A stretch of 55,561 nucleotides of DNA from a virus. Each line of letters opens with the position of its first letter. Position 1 is the stretch's first letter. The notes beneath the pieces are model-generated. The model was not told where the DNA came from. It did no database searches and worked only from the letters and a program-made list of their open reading frames with translations. Where the stretch lies: IMG/VR virus record IMGVR_UViG_3300025112_006453, positions 1 to 55,561 of that record; one strand, 5' to 3'. Below are positions 8,817-26,600 of the stretch, one piece after another. The position numbers and the translations under genes were made by a program.

Positions 8817-8845
8817 TCGACAAACAGCCTAAAGTGTGTTATATT
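8817..8845 (+). promoter_or_regulatory. Sigma70-like promoter before the neuA-neuB block
   Basis: A -35 hexamer TCGACA (8817-8822, five of six to TTGACA) is separated by exactly 17 bases from a -10 hexamer TATATT (8840-8845, five of six to TATAAT). It lies in the only sizeable gap of the sugar cluster (8800-8877). It would start a transcript near 8852 carrying neuA and all genes to about 13774. Neighbouring sugar genes overlap and show no such site. This is a prediction from sequence alone. Confidence 0.55.
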
Positions 8846-8863
8846 ATAGAAAAAGGATAAATA

Positions 8864-8881
8864 ATGGTATATGTTATATGA
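8864..8881 (+). other. Five-codon leader ORF coupled to neuA
   Basis: ATG GTA TAT GTT ATA TGA reads MVYVI. It has AAGG at 8853-8856, seven bases upstream, a better ribosome site than the real neuA start has. Its TGA overlaps the neuA ATG at 8878 as ATGA. Ribosomes finishing this leader could restart on neuA, as overlapping genes elsewhere in the window do. It may also be a chance ORF that decoys the ribosome site. Confidence 0.4.
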
Positions 8882-9543
8882 GTGCGATTAAAGATAACAA
8901 AGATAATTTATGGATCGTCATCCCCGCACGCCAAGGCTCCGTTGGATTTCCAAATAAAAATAGGCTACTTTTTGAATACACTGCTTTACAGATACCTGAA
9001 TACCTAAGAAAAAGAACGGTAGTAACAACAGACGACGATGTTTTAAAAAAAGAGGCATCCGCTTTTGGATTTATTGTTATCGACCGGCCTGAAATTTTGG
9101 CCACAGCTGAAGCAAGCACAAGAGACGCACTGGATCATGTAAAAGAATATTTGTGCATGTCTGAAAACGATGTTGTAATAATGCTATACTTAACCTTCCC
9201 GGAGAGAAGATTTAAGGATGTAGAAAAAGTGTTTGATTTTTATAAGGATAACGGTGCTAAAAGCGTGCTTTGTAAAAGCAAAGTAGACAAACATCCATAT
9301 TTGTGTCTATATGAGGAACCGGGCAACACCGGCAGACAGATTATAAGACACGATATGTACAGAAGACAAGATTACCCAAAGTGTTTCTTTGTGCTTCATT
9401 ATGTGACTATCTGCAAAGTATCAGAGATCGACAAATTAAACAAAAATCTTTATAATAACGACACACTATATTTTTCAATAGAAAGAAAGATAGACATTGA
9501 TGAACCAGAACATTTTGAGAAATGGAAAAAAGATGACTTTTAG
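8878..9543 (+). CDS. neuA: CMP-nonulosonate (CMP-sialic acid) synthetase-like cytidylyltransferase
   Basis: From the ATG at 8878 the protein has 221 residues. The upstream GTG at 8836 in the same frame lies inside the predicted -10 region and has no ribosome site, so I rejected it. IPARQGSVGFPNKN (15-28) is the CTP-binding loop of NeuA-type enzymes (usually PARxGSKxIPxKN). RTVVTTDDDVLKKEA follows at 46-60, RPEILATAEASTRDALDHV at 70-88, and the C-terminal ERKIDIDEPEHFEKW carries the IDIDxxxD ending typical of the family. The reaction expected is CTP plus a nonulosonic acid giving the CMP-sugar. The usual lysine of the loop is replaced (SVGF). The related KdsB/SpsF cytidylyltransferases remain possible, but the neighbouring NeuB makes NeuA most likely. 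Confidence 0.78.
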   Translation: MSAIKDNKDNLWIVIPARQGSVGFPNKNRLLFEYTALQIPEYLRKRTVVTTDDDVLKKEASAFGFIVIDRPEILATAEASTRDALDHVKEYLCMSENDVVIMLYLTFPERRFKDVEKVFDFYKDNGAKSVLCKSKVDKHPYLCLYEEPGNTGRQIIRHDMYRRQDYPKCFFVLHYVTICKVSEIDKLNKNLYNNDTLYFSIERKIDIDEPEHFEKWKKDDF

Positions 9544-10417
9544 CCCCTATAAAGATACTTTAAACTTGCCGTTTTTTATTGCCGAAATCGGTATTAATCA
9601 TAATGGCGATATAGAGATATGTAAGCAATTAATAGACATGGCCGTTGAGAGCGGCTGCAACGCGGTTAAATTCCAGAAGAGGGAAATCGATACCGTTTAC
9701 ACCCAAGAATACCTTGCATCGGCACGTCAGAGCCCATGGGGAACCACTCAAAGGGATCAGAAAGAAGGGCTGGAGTTTGGCAAAGCCGAATATGATGAAA
9801 TTGATCGATATTGCAAGAAAAAGGGCATCTTATGGAGCGCATCCGCTTGGGATACCCAGAGTCAGTATTTCTTGCGCGGGTACGATCTGCCCTTCAACAA
9901 GGTGGCTTCCGCGATGCTTACTCATCTTGAATTACTCAGGATAATTGCTGAAGAAGGCAAACACACTTTTATTTCCACTGGGATGTCTACCAGCGAAGAT
10001 ATTGAGAAGGCGTTAGCAATTTTCTGCACAGCTACGTGTCCTGTTACCCTCTTTCATTGTGTTTCGACCTACCCGTGCAAAGACGAAGATTGCAATATCA
10101 ACCTTGTCAAAAACCTACAGATTCAATACAACATTCCTGTGGGATATAGCGGTCACGAAGCAGGCATATTGCCTTCGCTATTGGCTGTAGCTGTTGGAGC
10201 GACTGCTTTAGAGCGCCACATCACTCTGGACAAAACTATGTATGGCTCAGATCAGTCGGCGTCTATCGAATGCGAAGCCCTACAAACACTAATTCGTGAA
10301 TCGCGACAAGTTACTAATACGCTTGGCACCGGACAAAAAGAATTCCTTCAGCATGAGATTCCCATAGCCGAGAAATTACGTTATTTTGAGGGAGGAAAGA
10401 GTGCGTCAGACGGATAA
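9533..10417 (+). CDS. neuB: Nonulosonate (sialic acid) synthase, NeuB-like, without SAF domain
   Basis: I chose the ATG at 9533 (294 residues, 11-base overlap with neuA, GGA about 8 bases upstream) over TTG 9497 and ATG 9500. The family pattern is clear: FFIAEIGINHNGDIEICKQL (14-33), NAVKFQKREID (43-53), an S-x-W-D segment, GYSGHEAGILPS (204-215) and ERHITLDKTMYGSDQSAS (227-244). NeuB/PseI/LegI enzymes join phosphoenolpyruvate to an N-acetyl hexosamine derivative to make a nine-carbon acid. The family usually has about 340-350 residues with a C-terminal antifreeze-like SAF domain. That domain is absent here, since the reading frame ends right after the TIM barrel. Which nonulosonate is made cannot be told. 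Confidence 0.88.
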   Translation: MTFSPYKDTLNLPFFIAEIGINHNGDIEICKQLIDMAVESGCNAVKFQKREIDTVYTQEYLASARQSPWGTTQRDQKEGLEFGKAEYDEIDRYCKKKGILWSASAWDTQSQYFLRGYDLPFNKVASAMLTHLELLRIIAEEGKHTFISTGMSTSEDIEKALAIFCTATCPVTLFHCVSTYPCKDEDCNINLVKNLQIQYNIPVGYSGHEAGILPSLLAVAVGATALERHITLDKTMYGSDQSASIECEALQTLIRESRQVTNTLGTGQKEFLQHEIPIAEKLRYFEGGKSASDG

Positions 10418-10760
10418 TATTTCCTTTGTACCCAAAGGATGGGGTTTTGAAAAATGGATTATAAATTGTGAAGAATATTGTGGAAAGCTGTTATACTTTG
10501 TGAAAGGAAAGCGTTGTTCGTGGCACTATCATAGGTTGAAAGATGAAGTTTTTTACGTACAGTCTGGTCGCATTAGGGTGAGATACTCGAACCGTGACGA
10601 TTGGAATTCGGCCGACTCGATCGTACTCGTCCCGGGCGACAACTTTCATGTAGCTCGCGGATTGCGCCACCAAATGGAGGCACTTGAAGATACGGAGTTG
10701 TTTGAGTTTTCAACACAACATTTTGATTCGGATAGCTACCGGATTAAGAAGGGCGATTAA
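10401..10760 (+). CDS. Small cupin-domain protein
   Basis: The GTG at 10401 is the likely start because GGAGGAAAGA lies directly before it; the TTG at 10386 in the same frame precedes that site. The protein has 119 residues and a single cupin fold. SWHYHRLKDEVFYVQSGRIR (40-59) supplies metal ligands H42, H44 and E49, and PGDNFHVARGLRHQMEA (78-94) supplies the second motif with H83. Single cupins next to neuB genes are often sugar isomerase or epimerase-like, or sugar-binding accessory proteins. The 17-base overlap with neuB indicates co-translation. The substrate is not known. Confidence 0.82.
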   Translation: MRQTDNISFVPKGWGFEKWIINCEEYCGKLLYFVKGKRCSWHYHRLKDEVFYVQSGRIRVRYSNRDDWNSADSIVLVPGDNFHVARGLRHQMEALEDTELFEFSTQHFDSDSYRIKKGD

Positions 10761-11086
10761 TGATAATTTATGTTGATATAGATGAAACAATTTGTCACTA
10801 CGAGGACCTTAGGGAATATCCCTTAGCGCTTCCTATTCTTGAGAATATCAAAAAGATTAACGACCTATACGACGCGGGACATACCGTTGTCTATTGGACC
10901 GCACGAGGCGCCAAAACGGGTATCGACTGGACGAAGCTTACCCACCAACAACTAAAGGATTGGGGCGCAAAGTACACCGACTGCTGCTTAGGCAAACCAG
11001 ACTACGATTTATTTATTTGTGATAAAGCTATAAATTCCAACTCTTTTTTTGAGAGTAGAGAAGAAAATTTTTATAATAGGCAATAG
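10760..11086 (+). CDS. Minimal HAD-superfamily phosphatase
   Basis: In these 108 residues IIYVDIDETICHYEDL (2-17) is HAD motif I with D6, D8 and T10. VVYWTARGAKTGIDW (44-58) is motif II with the threonine in TARG. GKPDYDLFICDKAINS (74-89) provides the lysine of motif III and the aspartates of motif IV. There is no cap domain, so this is a compact C0-type enzyme like those in capsule and phosphosugar clusters. It probably removes phosphate from a sugar-phosphate of the pathway. A polynucleotide phosphatase role is less likely given the neighbours. It overlaps the cupin stop by one base (TAATG). Confidence 0.78.
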   Translation: MIIYVDIDETICHYEDLREYPLALPILENIKKINDLYDAGHTVVYWTARGAKTGIDWTKLTHQQLKDWGAKYTDCCLGKPDYDLFICDKAINSNSFFESREENFYNRQ

Positions 11087-11108
11087 CCAGAATTTAAAAG
11101 GAGATAAA

Positions 11109-12068
11109 ATGAAGAAAATTTTTATAACAGGCATTAGTGGATTTATTGGAAAATACCTTTCCAAGAAATTAATTGAAGAGGGAGATTATGAAATCCATGG
11201 TCTGGTGGAAAAAGATCCCGACAGAGATCTTGGGTTTGAATATACCGCCTGGGCCGGCTCCCTAACGGACTTTGATTTAATTGGAAAATATTTGGAAGAG
11301 ATTAATCCGCACTTTATTATTCATCTCGCCGCACGTACCGAGGTTGAAAAAAGCTTTTATGATCCCATTCATTTCCAAACAGTTAACTACGATGGAACGG
11401 TCAACCTTATTGAAAAATCCAAGAATTTGTCTAATTTAGAGTTATTTGTTTTCTCTTCCACCATGGAAACGTATGGTGCGGTGCCAAAATCTGAATGGGT
11501 TGCGTTTGACGAAGACACTAAACAATATCCCAATGCTCCCTACGCTGTGGCCAAGATTGGGTGTGAGTACTATTTGAGATATGCGGAACGCTCCTATGAC
11601 TTTCCGTTCACAGCCCTTCGACAAACCAACACATATGGGAGATGGGATAACGACTTTTTTGTTGTAGAACAGATTATCACACAGATGCTCAATAACCCGG
11701 ACGAAATTAGCTTAGGTTATAGACAGCCGTATAGGAACTTTTTATTTATTGATGATTTAATCAACCTATACACCACTGTACTTAAAAATGTTGATTTGGC
11801 AAAAGGCGAGATCTTTTGCACTGGTCCGGACAACGCAATTCAGATAAAAGAACTTGCGGACGTAATCGGAGAGAAGCTCAACTGGAAGGGCAAGATTATG
11901 TGGGGGACGAAGCCCCCCCGAGCAGGAGAGATTTATTATCTTAATTCCACAGCAGAAAAGGCCCGAAGAATTTTAAATTGGGGTCCGGAAACTGACCTAG
12001 ATAGTGGGCTTGATAAAACAATCGAAATGTGGAGAGGTCGCATTTCGACGAAGGCCACTGATGGCTAG
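11109..12068 (+). CDS. NAD-dependent sugar epimerase/dehydratase (extended SDR)
   Basis: The ATG at 11109 follows a near-ideal site (AAGGAGATAAA) and gives 319 residues; the longer frame from 11049 overlaps the HAD gene and has no site. The features are ITGISGFIGKYL (6-17, NAD loop), IIHLAARTEVEKS around 75-87, FSSTMETYG around 113-121, the YAVAK catalytic Tyr-Lys pair around 142-146, and RQTNTYGRWD plus FLFIDDLINLY further on. This is the architecture of nucleotide-sugar 4,6-dehydratases and 4-epimerases such as GDP-mannose dehydratase-like enzymes. The exact reaction is undetermined; it should feed an activated modified sugar to the transferases. Confidence 0.85.
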   Translation: MKKIFITGISGFIGKYLSKKLIEEGDYEIHGLVEKDPDRDLGFEYTAWAGSLTDFDLIGKYLEEINPHFIIHLAARTEVEKSFYDPIHFQTVNYDGTVNLIEKSKNLSNLELFVFSSTMETYGAVPKSEWVAFDEDTKQYPNAPYAVAKIGCEYYLRYAERSYDFPFTALRQTNTYGRWDNDFFVVEQIITQMLNNPDEISLGYRQPYRNFLFIDDLINLYTTVLKNVDLAKGEIFCTGPDNAIQIKELADVIGEKLNWKGKIMWGTKPPRAGEIYYLNSTAEKARRILNWGPETDLDSGLDKTIEMWRGRISTKATDG

Positions 12069-12933
12069 ATGCTTGGTAACCGGACACAAAGGTTATATAG
12101 GGTCCAGATTATTTAAAAAATTGCAGGATCTTGGCCATGAAGTTGCGGGGATTGATTTGGAAGATAAAATTTCAAAAGACATCATATCTTATCTCAAAGA
12201 AGATAACGATGGTAATTTTCACCCTTACTATACTGCTTTTGAACCAGAATATATCTTTCATTTAGCATGTTGGCCTAGAATTGGATTCAGTCTAGAAAAC
12301 CCGGTCGAAACTATGCGAAACAATGTTATGGGGGGCACTGTTTTGTTAAACTTTGCCAACAAGATGGCGTCTGTTAAAAGGGTAGTCTATTCTTCTTCAT
12401 CATCGGTGGTAGGGAATGGTACCGGGCCTACTAATCCTTATGCCTTGCATAAATTAATAACAGAAAAAGAGTGCGGGATCTACTCTGAGGTTTACGGATT
12501 AGATACAGTATGTTTAAGATACTTTAATGTATATTCAGAAGATCAGCCGGCCGACGGTCCGTATGCGACAGCTATAGCTAATTGGATGCATACCTTGCGC
12601 GAAGGCAACATCCCGTTTATTACCGGCGACGGGGAGCAGCGCCGCGACATGGTGCATGTGGAGGATGTAGTATTAGCCAACATTCATTGTATGGAACATG
12701 CTGAGCGATTTGACGGAAAAGTTTTTGATGTGGGCACTGGTCAAAATATCTCTCTTAATGAAATTAAAAATATTGTTAAGAGGTATCATGACGTAAGATT
12801 TAACTATATCGGTCCTAGACCCGGCGAAGTAGCAACTACGTTGGCAGATACAGAACCACTTAAAAATTGTGGCTGGAAGGCGCAGACCTCTATAGCAGAC
12901 GGTATTGATGGGTGTTTTAATTTTGAAAAATAA
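12061..12933 (+). CDS. NAD-dependent epimerase/dehydratase (UDP-glucose 4-epimerase-like)
   Basis: The start at ATG 12061 overlaps the previous stop by eight bases and yields 290 residues. It has CLVTGHKGYIGSRL (4-17, NAD loop), IFHLACWPRIGFS around 64-76, YSSSSSVVGNG around 110-120, YALHK around 127-131 as the catalytic pair, and RYFNVYSEDQPADGPYA and RRDMVHVEDVVLAN, which match the GalE-like and WbpP-like branch. It is a second, diverged SDR directly after the first, so the two probably act in sequence on a UDP- or GDP-sugar. Its cofactor loop is GxKGxxG rather than GxxGxxG in the usual spelling, which is common for the family. Confidence 0.85.
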   Translation: MARCLVTGHKGYIGSRLFKKLQDLGHEVAGIDLEDKISKDIISYLKEDNDGNFHPYYTAFEPEYIFHLACWPRIGFSLENPVETMRNNVMGGTVLLNFANKMASVKRVVYSSSSSVVGNGTGPTNPYALHKLITEKECGIYSEVYGLDTVCLRYFNVYSEDQPADGPYATAIANWMHTLREGNIPFITGDGEQRRDMVHVEDVVLANIHCMEHAERFDGKVFDVGTGQNISLNEIKNIVKRYHDVRFNYIGPRPGEVATTLADTEPLKNCGWKAQTSIADGIDGCFNFEK

Positions 12934-13774
12934 TAAAACAATTGGTATTGTAGGTCAGGGTTTTGTTGGGACTGCTATTCGCGAGGGAATGAAAAAATAC
13001 TATAATATAGAAACATATGACAAGTATTTTGCCGATCGCTCAACTTGCAATAGTTTAGAGGAGTTATGCAGAAAGGCACAAATAGTATTTACGTGCTTGC
13101 CAACGCCCATGAAAAAAGACGGTTCATGTGACCTGTCCATTTTGGAAGACACGGTATATAAGATTAATCAGCTGGCTCTTAATAGTGTGGTGATAATAAA
13201 ATCAACAGTCATTATAGGCACCACGGCAAGACTGAATAACGAATGTAAAAATATAGATGTAGTTTTTAACCCAGAGTTTTTGACTGAAGCTAATTATATC
13301 GATGATTTTAGAAATCAAAATAGGATTATTATAGGCGGCCCGCGCCCAGCAACCACGCTTGTTAAAAACATGTTTCGAAAAGTCTTTCAAGAGGCGACGA
13401 TAGTTAAAACCGGCTCAAACACGGCTGAGGCCGTTAAGTATTTTACTAATTGTTTTTTGGCCACCAAAGTAAGCTTTGCTAATGAGTTTAAACAAATTTG
13501 TGATGAAACGGATGTTGATTACGATAAAGTAGTAGAATATGCCTTATACGATGGCAGAATCGGAAAGACTCATTTTTCTACTCCGGGCCCAGACGGCAAA
13601 AGGGGCTTTGGGGGCTCCTGTTTCCCCAAAGACTTAAATGCCCTGATGTATTATGCTAATATGTTAGGGATTTCGACAAGCGTTATGGAAGGCGCTTGGA
13701 ATAAAAACCTTGAGGTAAGGCCCGCAAAAGACTGGGAACTACTCATAGGAAGAGCAATTTCAAAAGACCAATAA
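12908..13774 (+). CDS. UDP-sugar 6-dehydrogenase-like protein lacking the C-terminal domain
   Basis: Starts possible are ATG 12908 (used here, 288 residues) or TTG 12923; neither has a clear ribosome site, and coupling to the preceding gene is likely. KTIGIVGQGFVGTAIREG (10-27) is the NAD loop. Then come CLPTPMK, IIKSTVIIGTT, VFNPEFLTEANYIDDF and RGFGGSCFPKDLNAL. C238 is the catalytic cysteine of UDP-glucose/GDP-mannose dehydrogenases. The protein ends about 50 residues later, whereas the family normally continues with a UDP-binding C-terminal domain (total about 400-450). It may be a reduced enzyme or need a partner. If active it makes an acidic (uronic) sugar nucleotide. Confidence 0.82.
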   Translation: MGVLILKNNKTIGIVGQGFVGTAIREGMKKYYNIETYDKYFADRSTCNSLEELCRKAQIVFTCLPTPMKKDGSCDLSILEDTVYKINQLALNSVVIIKSTVIIGTTARLNNECKNIDVVFNPEFLTEANYIDDFRNQNRIIIGGPRPATTLVKNMFRKVFQEATIVKTGSNTAEAVKYFTNCFLATKVSFANEFKQICDETDVDYDKVVEYALYDGRIGKTHFSTPGPDGKRGFGGSCFPKDLNALMYYANMLGISTSVMEGAWNKNLEVRPAKDWELLIGRAISKDQ

Positions 13775-14434: not shown

Positions 14435-14760
14435 TGCTGATCTATATAATACTAACAATATCAATAATAAGTAATATACTATTATTTTGGTACGTAGCCA
14501 GATTGCTGAGAAAGTTTATTTTCATATCTCAGAATATGGCTGACTTGTTTCTTATAACAAAAGCGTTTCAAGTTTTTACAAAATCCTTGTTTAGTATGAA
14601 TTCTTTTAATGGAGAGCCTATAATTGAAGAGCTCATTTATAAAATAAAAGAGGTAAATGAAGAAATAGAGGATTTTAGGAGTATTTTTGAATATTCAATA
14701 GACGCAGAACTAGAGGAAGAACTTAATGCCGCCGAAGAAGAAGCGCAAGAAAAGCACTAA
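14434..14760 (+). CDS. Membrane-anchored acidic phage protein
   Basis: The ATG at 14434 overlaps the FmdB stop (TGATG), with AAGGTAGG upstream; the GTG at 14431 in the same frame is an alternative one codon earlier. The 109-residue product has a single N-terminal transmembrane helix (about residues 2-20, LIYIILTISIISNILLFWY) followed by basic residues (RLLRKF), which predicts the rest is cytoplasmic. The remaining 80 residues are helical and become strongly acidic near the end (DAELEEELNAAEEEAQ). No known domain was recognised. It overlaps the late sigma gene by 35 bases in another frame. Confidence 0.66.
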   Translation: MLIYIILTISIISNILLFWYVARLLRKFIFISQNMADLFLITKAFQVFTKSLFSMNSFNGEPIIEELIYKIKEVNEEIEDFRSIFEYSIDAELEEELNAAEEEAQEKH

Positions 14761-15424
14761 AAATCATTATTTTACAAAGGTTCATGAAGATGCAATAGTA
14801 AAATACGCACGCACTGAAGATAAAGAATTGCGAACAAAGTTGTATATTGAATTTATACAACCTGCGTTTGACCAGATGGTTGATAAAATAATCTATACTT
14901 ATAGGTTTACTAACCTACCGAATATTGCCTACTTAAGAGACGACTGTAAAATCTGGCTCACAACAATTTTAAACAAATATGACCCTTCTAAGGGGTCCAA
15001 AGCATTTTCATATTTTTCTGTTGTAACTAAAAATTGGTTTATTCACAAAGTTAAGAAAAACCAAAAACGAAACAAAGTTGAAGTTTATTTGGAGGATATG
15101 TTAAATGAACTCGACGAAAAAGTGATATCTCAGGAGCCTACATATTCTGAACTTCGAGAAGAAGCTGAATTTTGGAAAGCACTTAATTCGGAAATAGAAA
15201 CCTGGAATTCTTTTATGTTGAAAGAAAACGAACGAAAGGTTTTGATGGCTGTTCGTATTCTTCTAGATTCAGCAGACGAAATTGAAATTTTTAACAAAAA
15301 AGCTATTTACTTATACTTGCGGGAGATCACGGGCCTCAATACTAAACAGGTCGTCAATAATCTAAATAAGCTAAGAAAAAAATATAAGGTTTTTAAACAA
15401 AAATGGGAAAGCGGCAAAATCTAA
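14726..15424 (+). CDS. 55: Late-transcription sigma factor, T4 gp55-like
   Basis: This 232-residue protein has a basic start (MPPKKKRKKSTKNHYFTKVH). It then has IYTYRFTNLPNIAYLRDDCK (about 55-74) and ILNKYDPSKGSKAFSYFSVV (about 81-100) with NWFIHKVKKNQKR (about 104-116). These correspond to sigma region 2 (core binding and -10 recognition) of T4 gp55 and cyanophage homologues. The C-terminal 100 residues are helical with ITGLNTKQVVNNLNKLRKKY, resembling a small helix-turn-helix. T4 gp55 directs RNA polymerase to TATAAATA-like late promoters together with gp33 and the gp45 clamp. I recognise the family well. Its gp45-binding C-terminal motif is not evident. Confidence 0.87.
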   Translation: MPPKKKRKKSTKNHYFTKVHEDAIVKYARTEDKELRTKLYIEFIQPAFDQMVDKIIYTYRFTNLPNIAYLRDDCKIWLTTILNKYDPSKGSKAFSYFSVVTKNWFIHKVKKNQKRNKVEVYLEDMLNELDEKVISQEPTYSELREEAEFWKALNSEIETWNSFMLKENERKVLMAVRILLDSADEIEIFNKKAIYLYLREITGLNTKQVVNNLNKLRKKYKVFKQKWESGKI

Positions 15425-15711
15425 AATTAGAAGATTATATAGAAGAAACAACTACAAATATTCGTGAGGATAGAGCCCTGGCGAAATCTCTTTTAATGGA
15501 TGTTATGTCAGATATGAAGCTGTCACCGGCAGATCGTAGAGAAATGGGATCAATTGCGGCCAAATTTGTAGAGAATCTTCAACGCTCAAACGAGCAAATG
15601 GTTAAGTTGACAGCTTTAATGCAGCGGCAGAAATCTCAACAGTTCGGTCTGTCAGCCGATGATAAAGAAGAATTATTCGATCTCCTAAACGAAGACCAGA
15701 ACAATGAGTAA
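15403..15711 (+). CDS. Acidic-tailed 102-residue protein, possible gp33-like coactivator
   Basis: It overlaps the gp55-like gene by 22 bases. The product is helical and charged: an N-terminal acidic segment, DRALAKSLLMDVMSDMKLSP, SIAAKFVENLQRSNEQMVKL and a C-terminal tail LSADDKEELFDLLNEDQNNE. No catalytic motif is present. Its size, its overlap with the late sigma factor and its hydrophobic-acidic tail (ELFDLL) resemble the late-gene coactivator gp33 of T4. Gp33 has about 112 residues and binds the sliding clamp through a C-terminal hydrophobic-acidic motif. That link is an inference from position and composition, not from recognised homology. It could equally be a virion or assembly protein, since structural genes follow. 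Confidence 0.5.
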   Translation: MGKRQNLKLEDYIEETTTNIREDRALAKSLLMDVMSDMKLSPADRREMGSIAAKFVENLQRSNEQMVKLTALMQRQKSQQFGLSADDKEELFDLLNEDQNNE

Positions 15712-16978
15712 TGAAATTGATAATATTCTAGCAAATTTGGGCGTTGTAAATTCGACGGGGCCTAGCCGAGATTATAGTGAACTTCAAATTGGAGAAAACC
15801 AAATTGATACTCGATTTGAATCTACCTTTGATATAATCCGAAAAGCCGCTCTAGCCGAAAAGACGCCTAATATTCTGGGAAATTCTGATGCTGTAGAGGC
15901 CATTGTACTTCGCTCCGAGCCGTCTTCGCCTTCAGCGACGATGGGCGCACCACCCCCGCCCGGGGGTTTAGATTCAGTTGCGTATTGTAGGGTAATAAGC
16001 GGCCGCCATACCACCCTATTGCCGGATCCGGAAACTTTAGATCCGCCTGATTTTCGTAGTCAGTCTCTTATCTCTGCATTTCCAAAATTTCGTTATTCGT
16101 CCAGGGTCTGGGGGGTAATCCCAGCCGGCCTTCGAGTTCGCGTTGTTTTTGACCCCGGCTCCCTGTCGACCGGGCTCCTAAAGAAAGTAGTTGGCCTAGC
16201 TGCCTCTGGCGCCTCGGCCCATGGACCCATGGCCCCTGGACCCATGGGTCCTCTCCCGGGCCTTCCAAACCACTTTACCAATCCCGCATTTCTTGGGAGC
16301 GTGACAAACGTCGGCGCGTGTCCAAGTGTAGGTCAGGATCCCTCTAATAGTAGTGCGGGAGTCGGCCGGATAAACGGTTCAGATACTCAAACCGGCAAAC
16401 AACTTCATCAAAATAACTGGGAGCACAGTACATGGACGGTAAATCCTGTAAGCAATTTTATTTTGCCGATAAAACCATCCGAAGGAAGGGGCACTTCCAC
16501 CACCCTGGCTGCAGCTTCGGGATATAATCGAAGCTCGGGGAAAAGGCACGGCGGCGTCGATATCAGCGCACACACGGGGACACCTCTTTATGCCATTCAA
16601 GACGGCGTAGTAGTTGATAATCCAGGCATTTGCCGCGGCAATCGACCTAGTACCGGCGGCAACATGTTTCAGTACAAAACCCTTGAAGGGTATTATATTC
16701 GTTATGTTCACATGGATATGCCAAGTCATATACAAAAAGGCCAGCCGATTAAAAAAGGACAACTTGTGGGATATGTAGGAAATACCGGCGCCTCTCAAGC
16801 AGCACATCTTCATTGGGATATATCCACAGAAAGAATCAAGAAAGGTGCGGCGACGCTACACCCTGCAGATTTTTATCCTCCTACAATGATTCTCGCGAAG
16901 TGGGACCAGCAGCCGCTCTCTCAACAGCGACGTGCATCAAGGCCAGACATCCATGTCCCGAGCCGCCGGACGGTTTAA
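15704..16978 (+). CDS. Tail-tip protein: shared hub domain plus M23 metallopeptidase
   Basis: In this 424-residue protein, residues 1-165 are the domain shared with the genes at 16983 and 18503. Its hallmarks are EIDNILANLG at the start, QIDTRFESTFDIIRKAAL around 34-51, VEAIVLRSEP around 64-73, HTTLLPDPETLDP, LISAFPKFRYSS and VRVVFDPGS. A Gly/Pro/Met-rich linker follows (about 166-200). The C-terminal M23 (lysostaphin/LytM-like) domain has H282 and D286 in RHGGVDI, IRYVHMDMPSHI, GQLVGYVGNTG, and H368-x-H370 in AAHLHWDI, all zinc and catalytic positions. It should cut peptidoglycan crosslinks during injection. It is encoded just before the next paralogue. Confidence 0.87.
   Translation: MSNEIDNILANLGVVNSTGPSRDYSELQIGENQIDTRFESTFDIIRKAALAEKTPNILGNSDAVEAIVLRSEPSSPSATMGAPPPPGGLDSVAYCRVISGRHTTLLPDPETLDPPDFRSQSLISAFPKFRYSSRVWGVIPAGLRVRVVFDPGSLSTGLLKKVVGLAASGASAHGPMAPGPMGPLPGLPNHFTNPAFLGSVTNVGACPSVGQDPSNSSAGVGRINGSDTQTGKQLHQNNWEHSTWTVNPVSNFILPIKPSEGRGTSTTLAAASGYNRSSGKRHGGVDISAHTGTPLYAIQDGVVVDNPGICRGNRPSTGGNMFQYKTLEGYYIRYVHMDMPSHIQKGQPIKKGQLVGYVGNTGASQAAHLHWDISTERIKKGAATLHPADFYPPTMILAKWDQQPLSQQRRASRPDIHVPSRRTV
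15800..15849 (+). repeat. 50-base direct repeat, copy 1
   Basis: This stretch within the first tail-tip paralogue is identical base for base to 18599-18648 in the third paralogue. A second identical stretch of 31 bases lies at 15713-15743 and 18512-18542. The matching second paralogue (17082 onwards) is clearly diverged here. Identity at DNA level, including synonymous positions, suggests recent duplication or gene conversion. Confidence 0.85.
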
Positions 16979-16982
16979 CTAT

Positions 16983-18359
16983 ATGGTAAAAACGCCCACC
17001 GCTGTTCAAGTATTATTAGCTGAAGTTGACATGAACGCTCCAGATGCTGGCTCGATATTGGGCATAGGACACTCTGCAATAGATACCCGATTTGAATCTA
17101 CTTTTGATATAATTAAAAACTTTGCATTTAATAAAAGTACACCTAATATTTTCGGAAATTCCGACACGGTTGAAGCCATTGTGCTTCGTTCGGAGCCAGA
17201 TTTGCGATCGCCTCCTGCTCCGTCCCTTGTTCCATCGTCGCCCAGCGCCCAGCCAGAGGCTTCTGCGGGCGCGATGGCTCCTATGGGAGCTAATCTCATT
17301 GCCTACTGCAAAACGATAAATTCCGACCACACCACCCTATTACCAGACCCACAAACCTTAGATCCAACGGACTTTCTTAGTCAAGCGCTTATTTCTGCAT
17401 TCCCAAAGTTTCGCTATTCTGCTCCTAATTTGATGGGGGTAATACCACCAGGAACAGTTGTTAGCGTTACTTTTGATCCGGGGTCCTTACAAGGCGGTGT
17501 TATTAATTTACCAATGGCGCCTCCCTGTATGGATTGCCCTGGTGGCTCCGCCGGCTTTCCTGGCGCTTTTGGGGCATTTGCCCCGGGCGCTTTCCCTCCT
17601 GGTCTGTCCCCGGGAGGATGTAGTGGCCCTTCGGGAGCTAAAGGATCCACGCGTGTCCCTAAGTTTACATATCAGGAACTAAAAACATTAAGGGCCCCGT
17701 TGCAACCACTTTTAGAATATATTGCCGCACACGAATCTAGGGGAAACTATAATGCTGTTAATAGGGGTGTCGGCGGCGATACTCCCGGCGGCGCAAAAGC
17801 CGTTGTCGGAAAAGATTTAACCGAGATGACAATTGGAGAGGTATTGAGTTACATGAAGGGATATAAACGAGGCGACGGGTCGCGCCAACCGGCGGGCGCC
17901 AATGCTGCTCAAACAGGCGCCGGCGGTCAGGGCTCGGTTGGGTTTTTAGCAACAGGTAAATATCAATTAATTCCCGTCACCCTTCGTGCTGCGGTTAACA
18001 GCACGGGCATACCTCTCAGCACAAAATATAATAGAGAAACTCAGGAAATTTTAGGAGTTTACTTGTTGTTAAAGAAAAGAAGGAAGCTTGGAAGCTATTT
18101 AATAGGCGTCAATAACGATGTCTGCACTGCCGGACAAGCAGCTGCCTTAGAATGGGCGTCACTTCCTCTTCAATATGGCAGAGAAAATGGGTGCCCCCGC
18201 GGCTTTAGTGCATATTGTGTTGGTGGCGCAAATGCGACAGGGAAGCTAAGTAGATCTCCAGAAGAGGTTATCCAACAATTAAGCCAGGCCCGGGCTGCGA
18301 TGCTTCGAAATCCTGTGGCGAGAGCTCTTATAACCAACAGGGGGGGCGTTATAGTTTAA
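16983..18359 (+). CDS. Tail-tip protein: shared hub domain plus lysozyme/transglycosylase-like domain
   Basis: I place the start at ATG 16983 (458 residues), four bases after the preceding stop; ATGs at 16932 and 16953 would overlap the previous gene and precede the aligned domain start. Residues 1-175 repeat the shared domain (AIDTRFESTFDIIKNFAFNK, VEAIVLRSEP, HTTLLPDPQTLDPTDFLSQA, GTVVSVTFDPGS). A Gly/Ala/Pro/Phe-rich linker with a CMDCP motif follows. The C-terminal 220 residues hold LLEYIAAHESRGNYNAV with likely catalytic E251, MTIGEVLSYMKG, FLATGKYQLIPVTLRAAV and a helical end. This pattern belongs to the lysozyme/lytic-transglycosylase superfamily and cuts glycan strands. No spanin or holin is adjacent, so it looks virion-borne. 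Confidence 0.82.
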   Translation: MVKTPTAVQVLLAEVDMNAPDAGSILGIGHSAIDTRFESTFDIIKNFAFNKSTPNIFGNSDTVEAIVLRSEPDLRSPPAPSLVPSSPSAQPEASAGAMAPMGANLIAYCKTINSDHTTLLPDPQTLDPTDFLSQALISAFPKFRYSAPNLMGVIPPGTVVSVTFDPGSLQGGVINLPMAPPCMDCPGGSAGFPGAFGAFAPGAFPPGLSPGGCSGPSGAKGSTRVPKFTYQELKTLRAPLQPLLEYIAAHESRGNYNAVNRGVGGDTPGGAKAVVGKDLTEMTIGEVLSYMKGYKRGDGSRQPAGANAAQTGAGGQGSVGFLATGKYQLIPVTLRAAVNSTGIPLSTKYNRETQEILGVYLLLKKRRKLGSYLIGVNNDVCTAGQAAALEWASLPLQYGRENGCPRGFSAYCVGGANATGKLSRSPEEVIQQLSQARAAMLRNPVARALITNRGGVIV

Positions 18360-18362
18360 ATT

Positions 18363-18488
18363 ATGGGCGGAGAAGACAAGCATACAAGACCAAAATCTGT
18401 TCGAAGCCCGGCTGAGCACATCATGCTGCTAGATGGTTCCCATGGCCGCAGCATCGAGGCTGAAAATTCTGATTTAGAAGATAATTAG
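18363..18488 (+). CDS. Possible 41-residue protein between the tail-tip paralogues
   Basis: An ATG at 18363 opens a 42-codon frame ending TAG at 18486-18488. It fills the gap between the second and third tail-tip genes and stops just before the strong ribosome site of the third (AAGGAGG at 18491-18497). The product begins MGGEDKHTRPKSVRSPAEHI and ends acidic (DLEDN). No clear ribosome site precedes it. It may be real, or a leftover of a longer domain. The SPAEHIMLLDG stretch loosely recalls the start of spike-type repeats (SPAGHxIxLxD) but it is too short to claim. Confidence 0.4.
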   Translation: MGGEDKHTRPKSVRSPAEHIMLLDGSHGRSIEAENSDLEDN

Positions 18489-18502
18489 GTAAGGAGGTAG
18501 AA

Positions 18503-19711
18503 ATGGCCAGCGAAATTGATAATATTCTAGCAAATTTGGGCGCCACAAATTCGACGGGGAGAGCCACAGGTTATGACGAGCTTCAAATTGGTGTTTCTCA
18601 AATTGATACTCGATTTGAATCTACCTTTGATATAATCCGAAAAGCCGCGCTGGTTGAAAATACACCCCATATTTTCGGAAAGTCTGATACTTGTGAGGCT
18701 ATAGTACTTCGATCGGAGGGCGACACGGCTGCCCCGTCGACCGGCGGTGGCGCCGCCCTCATTGCCTATTGCAAAATAATAAATTCCCACCACACCACTC
18801 TATTGCCGGATCCAACAACTTTAGATCCAACGGACTTTCTTAGTCAAGCCCTTATTTCTGCATTCCCAAAGTTTCGTTATTCTGCGGTCGACCTAATGGG
18901 AGTTCTCCCCCCGGGGACAAAGGTAAATGTCACTTTTGATCCGGGCTCCCTACAAGGCGGTACTATTAATTTGCCAGGCGCGCCTGCCTGTATTGATGTT
19001 TGTCCAACCGGCTCCGCCTCTTTTCCGGGCGCGCTGGGCGCCTTCGCTGGCGGCGCCCCCGGCGCCTTCTTCCGGTTGCCCCCGGGCAGCCACGATGTCG
19101 GTCTTTTATTTGGAGACAGTCAATCAGACGGGGGAAGCACACTCGGAGGACATTTACCTAAAGAACTTAAGGAGAAGGGTGTTGAATTGAAGGTGGAAGC
19201 GAAATATGGCAAGGGGCTTATAAGCGGGAAGGAACATTGGGATATTGAGAACCCTGCCGGCATCGCCCAAAAAGCATTGGCAGCTGCCCGTCCGGGCTTT
19301 GTTATAGTCGAACTGGGAGGCAACGATTCGTATTGGGTGGGCTCCGGTAATTCAACTGAGAAACAAACTAGATATGCTCAAACTATTCAAAAATGGGTAT
19401 CAACTATTCAATCATATGGGGTTAAAGCAATTATTTGGTTCGGCCCCTCCAAAGCCACCAAAATTGGCTCAAACGGTACCCCCTATGATAGCTTGCGCCA
19501 AAACGTTCGCAATTGGCAGCAGGAGATTCTCGGCAACATGTCGGGGGTGACTTGGCACGATACGGTGCCTTATACTGAAGGCTTACCGATGAAAACTGAT
19601 GGTGTGCACTTTATAGGGTCTTCTTATAAAGAGTGGGCCAATAGGCTGGTACAACTAGGCGCCCCCCTAGGCGGCCTTAAATCCAGCACCAACGCAGGAG
19701 CAACAAGATAA
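18503..19711 (+). CDS. Tail-tip protein: shared hub domain plus SGNH (GDSL) hydrolase
   Basis: This 402-residue protein has a good ribosome site (AAGGAGGTAGAAATG). Residues 1-155 repeat the shared domain, nearly identical in DNA to the first paralogue at its 5' end and closer to the second further on. A linker with CIDVCPTGSASFPGALG follows. The C-terminal domain has all SGNH blocks: GLLFGDSQSDGG with nucleophile S206, IVELGGNDSYW with N274, and KTDGVHFIG with D366 and H369 as the catalytic pair. Members of this superfamily are esterases or deacetylases. Here it would strip acetyl groups from peptidoglycan or surface glycan so the tail can pass. It is the third enzyme type on the same platform. 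Confidence 0.87.
   Translation: MASEIDNILANLGATNSTGRATGYDELQIGVSQIDTRFESTFDIIRKAALVENTPHIFGKSDTCEAIVLRSEGDTAAPSTGGGAALIAYCKIINSHHTTLLPDPTTLDPTDFLSQALISAFPKFRYSAVDLMGVLPPGTKVNVTFDPGSLQGGTINLPGAPACIDVCPTGSASFPGALGAFAGGAPGAFFRLPPGSHDVGLLFGDSQSDGGSTLGGHLPKELKEKGVELKVEAKYGKGLISGKEHWDIENPAGIAQKALAAARPGFVIVELGGNDSYWVGSGNSTEKQTRYAQTIQKWVSTIQSYGVKAIIWFGPSKATKIGSNGTPYDSLRQNVRNWQQEILGNMSGVTWHDTVPYTEGLPMKTDGVHFIGSSYKEWANRLVQLGAPLGGLKSSTNAGATR
18599..18648 (+). repeat. 50-base direct repeat, copy 2
   Basis: Identical to 15800-15849. Downstream, 18821-18849 (29 bases, beginning TTAGATCCAACGG) matches 17358-17386 in the second paralogue instead, followed after one mismatch by another 26 identical bases. 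The third paralogue therefore looks like a patchwork of the other two. Confidence 0.85.
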
Positions 19712-19713
19712 AC

Positions 19714-20664
19714 ATGTCATCTAAAAAATATCTTAAGTACGTTCTTCCTAAAGTAGAGCCTCCTTCTGTTGACATTCGCAATCCACGAAACCCAAAAGAA
19801 GGCCTGGGTCTTAGAAGTTTCTATGATTATGCCGGTGTTGGTTGCGCACCAACTTTGAAGCCACCTCCTTTAAGAAATATAGCTCCTGCTGAAAAACTTT
19901 TGCAGGGCGAGACAAATGCCACTATTTGTTTAGGTGTTGATAGACCATCAGGCAGGGCCACTGGTTACGGCGGTAAAGGCGTCACAGGCGCGGGCGCTGT
20001 AGATATTTGTGCCGGCAACATGGGAGGCTATGAAAGGAGTCATGGTTCTGGCCCTTTGTATAGTGATCCCAGTTATGTTATCGACGCCGCACGCTTCACG
20101 CTTAGTCAAAAATCCGACCCTGATGATAATCTTTTATTGCCCAAAGGAAAAGTGGGAACCGTTACGGGACTGTCGTCTGCCGTATTAAAGGCAGACGCGG
20201 TTCGCATGGTAGCACGAGATGGCGGGATGAAATTAGTAACGGGAGTGGATAACCGAAATTCACAAACTCATAAAATATTGAAAACTCCCGGGATTGATCT
20301 AATAGCCGGGGGCGACGATCAGGGTCTTCAAAAGATGGTGCTAGGAGAAAACTTAGTAGGAGCGCTTACCGAGATGCAGAGCGATGTAGATGATCTTAGA
20401 GAAGCAGTTACTTCTTTTCTAAAATATCAAAGAGGCTTCAACGACAAGATTATATCGCACAATCACCATTCTCCTTTCTTCGGGCTGGTGGGGGCCCCGT
20501 CAATTAATTTGATATTCGAAGGAATAAAAGCAACATTTCAGTTGACCGCGGAGACGGAAACTTCTCTTCTTTTCTCGGGGATCAATAAAACAATGTCTAA
20601 AAATTCATATTTTAATCCAATAGCGGAAAAATATATACTAAGTGCGTTGAACCATAATAACTAA
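19714..20664 (+). CDS. Putative tail-spike or baseplate hub protein
   Basis: This 316-residue protein starts two bases after the SGNH gene. The first 90 residues are Pro/Gly-rich. Residues about 153-178 read SAVLKADAVRMVARDGGMKLVTG, a pattern found in phage and type-VI spike-like proteins where short strands stack into a beta-prism. Residues about 207-247 form a predicted coiled coil (MVLGENLVGALTEMQSDVDD and on), and HNHHSPFFG near 248-256 is histidine-rich and could bind metal at a tip. The position after the three enzymes and before gp25/gp6 suggests the spike of the tail tip, comparable to the C-terminal part of T4 gp5. The family is not certain, and no homologue was compared. Confidence 0.55.
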   Translation: MSSKKYLKYVLPKVEPPSVDIRNPRNPKEGLGLRSFYDYAGVGCAPTLKPPPLRNIAPAEKLLQGETNATICLGVDRPSGRATGYGGKGVTGAGAVDICAGNMGGYERSHGSGPLYSDPSYVIDAARFTLSQKSDPDDNLLLPKGKVGTVTGLSSAVLKADAVRMVARDGGMKLVTGVDNRNSQTHKILKTPGIDLIAGGDDQGLQKMVLGENLVGALTEMQSDVDDLREAVTSFLKYQRGFNDKIISHNHHSPFFGLVGAPSINLIFEGIKATFQLTAETETSLLFSGINKTMSKNSYFNPIAEKYILSALNHNN

Positions 20665-20666
20665 AA

Positions 20667-23600
20667 ATGACTACTTTGACAAAAAGAAATTGGTATGCGA
20701 GAAAGGTCAATAGACCTTATAAAGATGATGATAACTATTATCTTAATGTATACTCTCCTATTATAGAGCGAGGTCTCGCCGATCCCGAAAACGCTGCCTC
20801 GGCCTCTGAATATGTGGACTCTGAACTACAAACATCTGCTTTAAATTCTATATTGTCCTATTATGGTAAACGGCAGACGTCTGCAGAGTACCGTGCCTCA
20901 CTCGACCCGGTGCCCCCGCCCCTAACCCTACAAATAAAGAATATATATTTTCCCAAGAGGGCATTAGTAAATCCGATTGTACTTTTGGCTCTTCCTAAAG
21001 AGCAAATGGAAAATCCCGAACTTATACGGGACTTGGCGCCCCCTGAAATCAACCAGTCCGAGGTAGCACCCGGAGGCCTTGAAAACATTCAAGTAGATCA
21101 AATAAAGCCTTTTCTTGCGCACATAGACACGGCATTCAAGATATATCAACAGCAACTACAATATTTTAATGGATCCATTACTCCTCGTATTAATTTTCTT
21201 GGTCTTTCAAGTAAAGTAAAAGCTTTCTTTGATAACTTAGAAAACTTTATTTCATTTAATGGTTATGACCTTAAAAAATATCAAACAGTAAATTTAGGAT
21301 TTAATGAAGATTTTAAAGTAGTATATGTAAGGCTAAATCTAAAGCCCGGTAGTCCAAGTCCCCCCGAAGCAATCGAAGCCGAGTCGGGGATGGCCGGGGT
21401 GTACATGCCTTTGGGCTCCTCACAAAAAACTCCAAAAATGGTGGTAATGCCCACCAAAGGCCTTTCCTATTATTTTGATGAGCTGCCAGCCGGAAAGAAT
21501 ACGATGGTTAACCAGCTGGTTTCCCAAATGACGAATATTTTTATGGTACGCAGGAGTCAAATTAATTGGACTCAATTTGCGAAGCAGTTTATGCCACAGA
21601 TTGTGGTAAATCATTTTGGGCGCCCGAAGACTCCCGACGTTGTGAGTGAGGCCCGGGCCGCCACCGCTGATGGGGACGCCGGCCCCTTGGGCACCACCGC
21701 GCTACTTCAACAAGATCTGAATAATTATTTTTCAGACGTCAATATTATCTGGAGAGGCTTCCAGGAAGCACGTAAAAAAGATGAAAAAGCTGAAAAATCG
21801 TTGCAGCAACGATTAGGCGATATCACAAAAGATATTCAGAATGCCGGCGAAGAAATGAACAAGGTTTCTGAATTTTTGGGTAAATATAGAATTACTTCTC
21901 TTATTGAGGCCGCCTTAGAGTGTTTGTTATTCAAAATAGGATATAGAGGCGAGATGCCTGCATTTATTCCTGGCATAGACCCGTTTGACCCGACACCTCC
22001 TCGTCTTCTATTGAAATTCCCAGCGATTGAATTAAAATTTCCGATTATTAAGATTAACAAGGAGATGCTGGCTGAAATAGAGGAAGGCTTAAAGCGCGCA
22101 GCTATGAGCGCACTTTTCGGAATCATCGAAGCCATTGCTGATATAATTAGAGAACTTTGTCTTAAAGATGACCATCCCGACGAGTCCACACGGCCGTTAC
22201 AGGATGCTATTGATAACTTTTTAAGCCCGATAGCCCCTCCGGGCGGCGCTAGAAATTGTTATAATGATTATAATTTAACAATTTCGGAGGCCGAGATGTT
22301 TCTTAACTTCTTGGCAAACCAAATAACAGATAAAGAGACCTGTGATTTGGTCAATGGCTATCCTTCAAACGATGTCTTACAGATTATTAGAAGTGTTTTG
22401 GCATATCCTGAGTTGTCTGCCGCTGCAGCTGCTTTGCCGGACGACGATACAGTTAGAGAGTTTTTTATATGCTTGGGAAGTTTTTTGGATCCTAGCTATT
22501 GCGAGGGCGTTTATAATGTGCAGCCTAATCTTACTGCCATCGACCCTTGCGAAATTGAAGACCAGTTAGCAGAGAATCCGGCGTTCCAAGAAATACTTAA
22601 TTTGTTAAATGAAGTGGCGGACTTGACACCAGATATGTCTTGTGGGGGGGGCATCGTCCCTGCGATGGCCGACGTGGCATCTTATAATTATGCTGTCACA
22701 ACATTAATCGATTCAATTCTGCAGCCGTCGCAACAGTTTTTTATTACTGACTTGGGAAATTATAAAGCAATCATAATGAAGCCGGATCCATACAATGAAG
22801 CCAACCAAGCCCGGCTGGACGAAATTAGGGTATTGTCGGGATCTCTCAATCCTCCTAGAGATAATCCTTCCGATACCGGAGGCGGCAAGAAGTTTCTAAA
22901 AGATCTTATACCCGAACAGGTGATCGAGAATTTTGGGGAAGATAGTGAATTTGGACGACTTGGAGCGAGGCTTAAAGCTCTTGCTGATCGTCCCATGGAG
23001 CAAAGATTAGCAGATCTCCAGGCGTCTGTGGTATATGCCGTAGCTCCCGAAACTCGACGATTTTATCAGAATATTGAAGACAATTTCGTGACAAGTAAAC
23101 TATTTGAGCCCGGCCCAAACGTCGGCGATGAACTGGACAGCTGGGAAGCTTCGAAGCGTTATTCGTTTTTAACTAATATTCCTCTCCCACTTGTCGCTAA
23201 ACCTGCCGGCCTATATGACGATTATGGGAAATCGATTGTCTATAGTCTAGATGCGCGCAGAGGGCAATTCGACATCACCCCCAACCCGGATCGAATTCAT
23301 ATTTTTGATGACGTGGTGGGAACGCCAAATGCTGAGATAGATGCTTTGCTCTCGCTTCCTAACCAGCTCGATCTCTTCCCCGGGCTGGAAGAAAATGCTT
23401 CTACGATAGCTTATTATCGTCAACAAGAAGCCAAAGAATTTGGTTCAACAATGACGAGCGCCGCGGCAACGCTTTTTGATTCCTCTCCTAATTTAGATAC
23501 TTATTTTATTCGAAAAGCATATCCGGCTGTTTATTTTTCGCTAATTAATATGTTTGCCTATCAGATAGGCAATTCAGAACTTTTTGATGCCAAAGCAATG

Positions 23601-26600
23601 AGTGCTTTGAGTTTGTTCCCTAAATTTTGTCACGACGGGCGCCAGGCGGATGCCGATCTTTTTGATGCCAACCAGATTAAGAGAGAGGCGTTACAAGAGT
23701 TTGTCGACAATTCTTGCACAGATAGACAAACAGAACTGGGCCCAGTCCGAGACGCGGGCATTTTAGCCTTAGTTAGTGCATATTTGCAGGTTTTGGTCGT
23801 GGACTTAATGCTTAAAAATATTTTTGTTATTAATGAGTTTGGTGCTGATTTCCTGACAGACGCTTCCGAGATTGTGAATGAACTTTTTTCACAAGCATCT
23901 ACTGGCCGAGACACCTCGGCTTATTTGATATCAGACTATGCGCGCATTCCATCAATTGTTAGAAAAGGTGCAGCCCTGGCGGTGAGAAAACTTATTGATA
24001 GAGATCCGGTGGGTTTCAATAGTACAGGATATCCAATTAGTGGCCCGTCACAAGAAATTGAAGATCTTATTGTAAATAATGGATTGATAATACCCGTATT
24101 CCAAACGGCCGGCTTCATCAATCCACTTACAGGCGAGTACACTCCCCCGGAAAATCCTCAAACCTCCACCCCTCCTCTTGAAACACAACTCAAAGCTTTT
24201 GATGCATCTAAGGTGCACCTTGATAATGAGTCTATGCAAAAGGTTGCTATTCGTTATCTTTTTGAAAAGCGACTACTGGGAACGCAAAACACTATAAAAG
24301 AGTATTTCAAGGTGGAGGGAACGAATGTGATAGAAAACTATCTTTTACATGGAATTCCTCACGTTGAAATACCAGTGTTTGATCAGGAGTTCCGCGAAAG
24401 CGCAGGCCTGCCCCGCACGGCGGAATTTGATACTTTGACCCACGAGAATGATAGCACCGTCCAGGTAAGAACAGTCCGCAGCGCGATGGATCACCCGCCG
24501 ACGACTTGGTTTGAACAGCTTGGATATTTTAGCGGCGGATCCACCAGGGAGGAACGACGTTATGAAATGAATTCTATAATGAATTATGGTGGACTTGTAG
24601 CTGAAAAATATATGCTTGTTGAATATAATGCGCCCGCGTATCAAGAGTTTCTTACAAACATAGAAGGCACTCTTCTAGGCTCTCTAGGCGACCAGCTAGC
24701 TCAATTCGGCACCATAATGGAGCGTCAGGAGGGGCTCGTAGCGATGTCATATGCTGATGTGGAAGATCCCTCCTCGACAATGAAGTATTATATCAGCTTC
24801 GACTTTTTTAAGTCGGCCTTTAAAATTTTATTTGATGCAATGCAATTGCAACGCGGCGGCGTCTTTCCGATTCCGTTTGCCCTTCGAGGAAATACCGCCT
24901 ACCAAATCGACCGCAACGTGTTCTCTCACAACAGCACCAACCAGAATGCCAATGATGAGGCCGCGAAGACCCCGTGCCAGGACAACTATAATTTCGGCAG
25001 CCTCAATGATCATGATACTAAAAATTTATATATCCAACTCAGTCCGGCGGGCTCTGAGTGGGGCCTAGGGGACGATGGAAGCGATCCTTACAAGCTGTCA
25101 GATTATGCTCTCATTCGAGGATGGGTTAGAGATATTCAAAGAGGCAATCGGCCTGCTTTCTTGTCTGATGTCCCGGACGACCGCATGTGGCGCGTCCGCT
25201 GCAAGTATGGCGACGACTGGGAAACCATCTGGAGGGAGCGGGGCAACCCGCCTATAAGAGAACTACGCTCACCCCGATCGACCTTCGCAAATGGTAAGTT
25301 TCGTTGGAACCCCATACCCGCCGGCGGGTATGGATCCACGCCCGGCGAGGAAGACGACTACCTGTACAACTGGCCTACGCCCTCGTGGGTCGCGAATCAC
25401 GGCTACGCCTATGCGCCGGAGGCCTTCGGAATTTTTAAGAGCATGGCCATTCAAGGATTAATAAATAAAAGGGCGCAGCACGGCCCCGGCCCCCACGACG
25501 GCTCGCCCACGGGCGATTCGCTCGGCGGCGTACTGTTGGGCACGGCTGCCCCCCGGCATTCGACGGACATCCTGGAAGACGCTTTTCAGAACGACCTCGC
25601 CCGAGGCGAGACCGGCTTCGGCATGGCCCTATTTGAATCAGAAAGTTTTATGATAGTTGTTCGTCTAGAAAAAAATTGGTGGAACATGACCAATGAAGCC
25701 CGAACTCATGATGATTACCAACAGGATGACGTACCTTACAGCAGCATATATTTATATTTGGTTCTCAAGTCAAGAGACCAAATGGACGAAACGACGAACA
25801 GTAATTTTCTCCGAGCTTCAGAGACCTCAAGCAAAACGTTTTATGCTCCTTTCCTCGACTTCGAGAACTCCATGGCCTCCGGGGGCTCAGCTGACGAGTA
25901 TCGAGAGAATTTTGAGATTATGATGACACTATTTGACACGTATAGAACACAAGAAGATTTATTTGATGGAATAGCGGAATTTCATGCCAACACAATGGAC
26001 TTAAGCAGTGCAGGTTCACCGTCAGGCACCGGCAGCCTAAGCCCCACCGTCGAGGAGCACTTGCCCGATTCCACTCCTCCCCCTGAGTTCACTGGCCTCG
26101 CCGCGATTTTTTCAAGTATATTTCCTTCTATTGAGATGGGCATGAGGCTTTCTTATATAACTCCAAAGCTAGAGACCATAAATGAAATGAACGACATAGT
26201 CGAACTCTTCGGAACCTCCGGAGTACAACATCATGAAAATATAATGAAACAATATAAATCTTATTATATGTATGGCCCTATGGGTGAGTCTGGGAAGTAC
26301 TTCGCCAACATGGCGACTAATAAAAAAGCTTCTAGACCGATAACAGATAATCTTTTTTCACAAAAGTTCCAAGATTTTGTTATGCAAAATGGTACTGTTA
26401 ATGGGTTTTCTAGATATGTTGATTTTATATTTAATGAGACAAAGCCGGCGTCCTGGATTCAGACCTCCTTGCCAGGCGAAGAACCGGCCTTTACGGACAT
26501 TCCAGAACAACCGAGCGTTAAGTTAGAAGTTGCAAGAATGCTTGCAGCTCAAACTCAACAGCTTTTCGGCCCTGGTGAGGTCGTAGATGTTGGAAAAATC

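Follow-up and report, generated by a model that had tools for sequence, protein, structure and literature searches.

The window analysed here, namely, the whole 55,561-nucleotide stretch of IMG/VR virus record IMGVR_UViG_3300025112_006453 (positions 1 to 55,561), carries three consecutive genes on the plus strand, at 15704-16978, 16983-18359 and 18503-19711, which encode proteins of 424, 458 and 402 amino acids. The start of the second gene is the ATG at 16983, nested in a longer GTG frame from 16932. The three proteins begin alike, with a platform of about 160 residues (60-66% identity; 63 and 65% in the N-terminal alignment), and a search of the window with the first gene recovered the other two N-termini at E-values of 3.4e-60 and 1.2e-41 (about 60% identity), a likeness that is far beyond chance. 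Both results agree with a previous sequence-only reading of this DNA, made without database searches, in which one N-terminal domain common to these genes had been pointed out. After a Gly/Pro-rich linker, the three proteins are wholly unlike one another.

The three C-terminal parts correspond to different enzymes, with the following results. First, platform protein 1 (shared domain at about 15704-16192) continues after its linker into a Peptidase_M23 domain at about 16544-16828 (Pfam, E 2.4e-20). Second, the C-terminus of platform protein 2 (shared domain at about 17052-17597, then linker and a lysozyme-like domain with the E251 codon at 17733) has no Pfam match; it matches PHROG 37890 (4e-27, unknown function) and PHROG 90 (1e-12, endolysin), and is homologous to the protein in the second slot of a related locus, L195 (32% identity, E 1.6e-35). 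Third, platform protein 3 (shared domain at about 18503-19060) ends in an SGNH/GDSL hydrolase domain at about 19103-19645 (DUF459/GDSL in Pfam, E 8e-7 and 1e-6), whose SGNH part is homologous to the SGNH half of the platform protein of another relative, L102 (E 4e-15). Profile searches thus return the M23, lysozyme-like (by PHROG) and SGNH/GDSL domains that had been proposed from the letters, and the catalytic-type residues named at that time, H282, D286, H368 and H370 in the first protein, E251 in the second, and S206, N274, D366 and H369 in the third, are all the letters found at those positions. The three frames are intact and their catalytic-type residues complete.

The platform genes belong to what can be recognized as a T4-like contractile-tail baseplate operon, because a late-sigma-factor-like gene lies upstream, and spike-like, 2244-amino-acid, gp25-like and gp6-like genes lie downstream, all on the plus strand. 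The sigma-like gene (14726-15424; PHROG 234 late sigma factor, E 4.8e-5) provides a conserved upstream marker, and a small gene of about 100 amino acids (15403-15711), found in the same place in the relatives inspected, separates it from the platform genes. Directly downstream of these come the spike-like protein of 316 amino acids (19714-20664; 60-row alignment A11), the 2244-amino-acid structural protein of the same operon (20667-27401), the gp25-like baseplate wedge protein (27440-27832; PHROG 261, E 3.6e-16) and the gp6-like baseplate wedge protein (27844-29661; PHROGs 10646 and 219, E 8e-20 and 1e-18). The sequence-only reading is supported in that the genes lie in a contractile-tail baseplate operon, and the order from the sigma-like to the spike-like gene is kept in relatives. 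The T4 late promoter motif was not enriched, and promoter and terminator counts were at chance level.

The platforms of the window appear to have exchanged sequence with one another. Over its first 60 or so alignment columns platform 3 is nearer to platform 1 (for instance, 52/60 versus 43/60 bases), and beyond column 100 it is nearer to platform 2 (for instance, 47/60 versus 28/57), which is consistent with a mosaic (18503-19069) formed by recombination between older copies 1 and 2. Platform genes 2 and 3 are separated by a possible open frame of 41 codons (18363-18488), after which a strong ribosome-binding-like TAAGGAGG stands ahead of gene 3.

A search with the platform yielded one direct relative, L005, with two platform genes. 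These carry DUF2272 and, by a weak match, an M15-like peptidase, enzymes entirely other than those of the window, and L005 keeps the spike-like protein (81% identical) and the neighbours, including the 2244-amino-acid protein (62%). With the platform as query, neither isolated phages nor species genomes gave a match, and a scan for the pattern HTTLLPDP returned chance matches only, apart from L014, a second copy of the L005 contig. The wider uncultured clade was reached by using the gp6-like and sigma-like proteins as queries, and an iterated platform profile was then run over all open frames of these relatives. The order sigma factor, 100-amino-acid gene, platform gene or genes, and spike is kept in 147 distinct loci with both flanking markers. 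Loci lacking a profile match mostly still hold one gene in the platform place, and many of those inspected show, by reading, an OB-like (oligonucleotide/oligosaccharide-binding-like) N-terminus together with a recognisable wall enzyme. Two loci of the clade, L253 and L254, sit on short contigs binned in bacterial metagenome-assembled genomes (an Actinomycetes bin and a Flavobacteriales bin, respectively), possibly by binning of phage contigs.

The platform place is occupied in 140 of these loci, by one copy in 125, by two in five and by three in ten; none has four, and no extra platform copies were found elsewhere in those loci. On a tree of the sigma-like and spike-like proteins, from which L163, a fourth two-copy case, was omitted, well-supported branches force all five of the changes that the three-copy state requires; the two-copy state requires three. 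The group of the window in this tree (starred) includes L108 and L020, with one copy each, and L005. Since copies from the same locus mostly cluster in the platform tree, most multiplications are best taken as separate events; three copies as the ancestral state was considered as well, and is disfavoured by both trees. A rough post hoc estimate gives a chance of about 0.02 that none of five three-copy lineages would have gone on to four, if the rate were that from two to three (5 of about nine). That loci have one to three copies and never more suggests, but does not prove, that the platforms fill three places of a three-fold puncturing device.

In one group, L186, L190, L195 and L196, the slots could be compared across loci. 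Platforms in the same slot are 64% identical across these loci, against 53.5% for different slots. A clade unites the slot-1 platforms (support 100/99), and the data also allow a clade for slot 2 and one for slot 3 (approximately unbiased test, p 0.19 and 0.50). As judged from these comparisons, the three copies in the four loci stem from one multiplication. The enzymes tell a different story: the M15 domain in slot 1 of L196 is homologous to slot 3 of L186 and L190 (E about 1e-50 to 1e-60), and slot 2 of L196 bears M23 where the others bear lysozyme-like domains. On these homologies, enzymes have been exchanged between slots and do not follow the platform slots. Within one locus the enzymes are mutually non-homologous, except in L163, and with a short match only in L199. 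The types encountered include VanY/M15, M23, Amidase_2, Amidase_3, N-acetylmuramidase, SLT, Phage_lysozyme, Phage_lysozyme2, GH19, DUF2272 and GDSL.

Some platform genes have no enzyme at all, namely, the sole copy of L119, the middle copy of L212 and the second copy of L163, a hint that the platform may matter structurally even without an enzyme. In L163 (8755-10321) the platform-only gene is followed by a platform-less enzyme gene, whose product is a homologue of the enzyme in the first copy, and the arrangement looks like a split hub gene. At the other extreme are very long single-copy hub proteins of 929 to 1325 amino acids (L139:10901-14878, L125:10965-14834 and L140:11018-13807), two of them with a VanY/M15 domain and with much sequence left without assignment. 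Of the 15 multi-copy loci, 7 have a protein-tyrosine-phosphatase-like (PTP-like) domain, as against none of the 125 with a single copy, a difference whose Fisher value of 4e-8 is overstated, as the loci are related and represent about three lineages. The PTP-like loci (dual-specificity/tyrosine-phosphatase-like, with the motif CxHGxDRTG) are L134, L186, L189, L190, L195, L206 and L208. In the single-copy L102, an N-acetylmuramidase and an SGNH hydrolase related to that of the window lie on one chain. Together, the distribution of the PTP-like domain and the L102 fusion suggest that accessory enzymes of this kind depend on a lytic enzyme carried by the same tail.

An AlphaFold2 model of the platform, built on a 92-row alignment, has an OB-like order of elements: first a helix, then five strands, then a second, short helix. 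Its predicted local distance difference test (pLDDT) score mostly exceeds 80 in the core, at residues 61-160. Foldseek matches were weak, mostly to ribosomal OB proteins. A second aligner ranked first a P1 C3 baseplate chain, 9vzk_q (Z 7.5 over 75 residues), and also returned A-1(L) chain 8kea_D (Z 6.3; the 104 residues aligned take in the helix ahead of the strands) and the Photorhabdus virulence cassette (PVC) central spike, 9qgm (Z 6.0). Chain q of 9vzk is likely to be the P1 spike. Matches among predicted viral structures include annotated tail lysozymes and an M23 protein of uncultured marine origin (E 6e-5). From the model, an OB-like fold is likely, and a hub protein plausible, though not proven. 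The separate spike-like protein gives a confident fold alone (pLDDT 87), and its profile distantly resembles the C-terminal half of the gp5-like proteins of cousin phages (hhalign E 8.7e-4). Its model found only generic helical hairpins in the PDB, it had no match in isolated phages, and PDB sequence searches with the platform, the spike, the SGNH domain and the lysozyme-like domain gave nothing useful.

Bacteriophage T4 offers the obvious comparison, as its gp5 is the product of one gene, forms a homotrimer with one lysozyme, and has the puncturing spike as its C-terminal half. The window shares with it the gp25- and gp6-like neighbours and, probably, the position at a contractile-tail tip and the combination of a predicted OB-type domain, an enzyme and a spike-like part. 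Likewise, the putative hub would bear peptidoglycan-active enzymes, M23 and lysozyme-like here, and VanY, amidase and muramidase in relatives. In contrast with T4, there are three platform paralogs and three enzymes, and no beta-helical spike in the same polypeptide, the spike-like protein being encoded apart at 19714. Flavobacterium phage immuto and Microcystis phage Mel-JY01 have gp5-like proteins in the same place, between the late-sigma-like gene and gp25/gp6, with a spike-like C-terminal half; by reading, their OB-like N-terminus and spike make one polypeptide, unlike in the window. Mel-JY01 encodes a GH19 chitinase-like protein in a gene of its own, which lacks this platform.

Two further systems come close. 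In Anabaena phage A-1(L), the central spike subunit (gp25) consists of an N-terminal helix and an OB fold, and the tail hub (gp15) bears lysozyme, endoglucanase and peptidase domains (PMC10966104). Both the helix-plus-OB spike subunit and the several hydrolases on the hub recall the window, but the enzymes of A-1(L) are on one chain of a homotrimeric hub and not on paralogous OB-platform proteins. A mixed trimer of gp5-like paralogs has been proposed for VgrG-1, VgrG-2 and VgrG-3 of Vibrio cholerae (PMC3166118), so that the idea itself is already known from type VI secretion. A VgrG heterotrimer has also been proposed in Aeromonas dhakensis, where several effectors, and not the heterotrimer itself, were required (PMC8668125), and no heterotrimer was found for the VgrGs of Serratia (PMC4924876). 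The likeness lies in the number of gp5-like paralogs, three, of which some end in an effector domain and one does not. This mix of paralogs with and without an enzyme occurs in L212 and L163, whereas the three of the window all carry enzymes. VgrGs belong to a secretion system and not to a virion, and are a debated precedent. In the literature on proposed VgrG heterotrimers we found no solved mixed trimer, and no description of the platform family, or of a virion with enzyme-diversified hub paralogs, was found in a literature search that covered few subscription journals.

With evenly balanced confidence, we propose that the three paralogs are a gp5-like tail hub with a separate spike, whose places they share as a mixed trimer; the trimer, its composition and its role in infection are what we infer. 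Copy numbers that stop at three, the repeated arrival at three, and slot-specific platforms whose enzymes can be exchanged lend this indirect support. Each protein would consist of a short helix and OB-like platform, then a flexible Gly/Pro-rich linker, then one enzyme, and would have the function that the N-terminal half of gp5 has in T4; the platforms would form a three-fold collar on the spike protein encoded at 19714. In most relatives, one gene would supply three identical subunits to this collar. In the phage of the window, three paralogs would share the three places, such that each tail may carry an M23 endopeptidase, a muramidase-like enzyme and an SGNH hydrolase, which could act jointly on the envelope upon tail contraction.

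Several observations weigh against this proposal. The OB-like core expected by the sequence-only reading is seen in the AlphaFold2 model, but the fold matches are middling and not hub-specific, with ribosomal S12 and IF1 OB proteins, and many non-phage OB proteins, at similar Z-scores. The platform has no gp5- or VgrG-family match in Pfam or PHROG, and its profile against the N-terminus of the gp5-like proteins of cousin phages is not significant (E 0.38). The multi-copy lineages are few, about nine, which leaves the limit at three no more than suggestive. The single copy in most relatives and the two in the closest one mean that a heterotrimer is no requirement of the family, and that a strict 1:1:1 rule fails across it. 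Moreover, the mosaic platform 3 leaves little room for long-established slot-specific interfaces in the window. In a stronger version, a homotrimeric ancestor would have given rise, more than once within a large clade of marine phages, to a hub that is always a 1:1:1 heterotrimer. Each tail would deliver three different envelope enzymes from one three-fold collar, and the enzymes would be shuffled among platform slots that stay fixed. This version is offered as a tentative and somewhat doubtful extension.

An unlikely alternative is that each paralog homotrimerises and each tail receives one kind, giving a mixed virion population with different lysins as bet-hedging over hosts or cell-wall states. 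Single-copy relatives do work with one gene, closely related platforms could compete for one site, and Serratia VgrG1 and VgrG2 were reported without heterotrimers (PMC4924876). This alternative, however, predicts neither the limit at three nor that three copies are as common as two; neither the PTP-like nor the SGNH domain is likely to breach a cell wall unaided, the former being absent from single-copy loci and the latter fused to a muramidase in L102; and the platform-only middle gene of L212 would give tails with no enzyme. Slightly less probable is that the platforms attach to other parts of the baseplate, for instance to peripheral sites or to several sites around the spike, as independent virion-associated lysins whose gene number reflects useful enzyme combinations and not three places. 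OB-like folds are widespread, the fold match is not specific to hubs, and the platform proteins vary greatly in length and enzyme, up to the 1325 amino acids of L139. However, the platform gene adjoins the spike-like gene, where the cousins have the OB-like N-terminal half of a fused gp5-like protein, and the sole, platform-only gene of L119 suggests a structural role. Quite improbable is a transient expansion by recombination, with one functional copy and the others decaying or swapped as lysin cassettes: the mosaic gene 3 and the entirely different enzymes of the two-copy L005 would fit, but the three frames are intact with complete catalytic-type residues, three copies persist in the divergent L186, L190, L195 and L196 with slot-1 orthology, and there were five separate changes to three copies.

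If the mixed trimer on a separate spike is true, gene duplication would turn a symmetric three-fold injection device into an asymmetric multi-tool; this would have happened in several independent instances, with the three places seemingly setting the upper limit. The loci would then also represent a naturally occurring collection of lysin modules that share one platform, and the debated heterotrimeric spikes of contractile injection systems would gain a comparative footing.

Upstream of the tail operon, at 8836-13774, we noted by reading a set of genes resembling nucleotide-sugar or sialic-acid-type synthesis, including a synthase, a cupin, epimerases and a sugar dehydrogenase, and similar genes lie upstream in L005.

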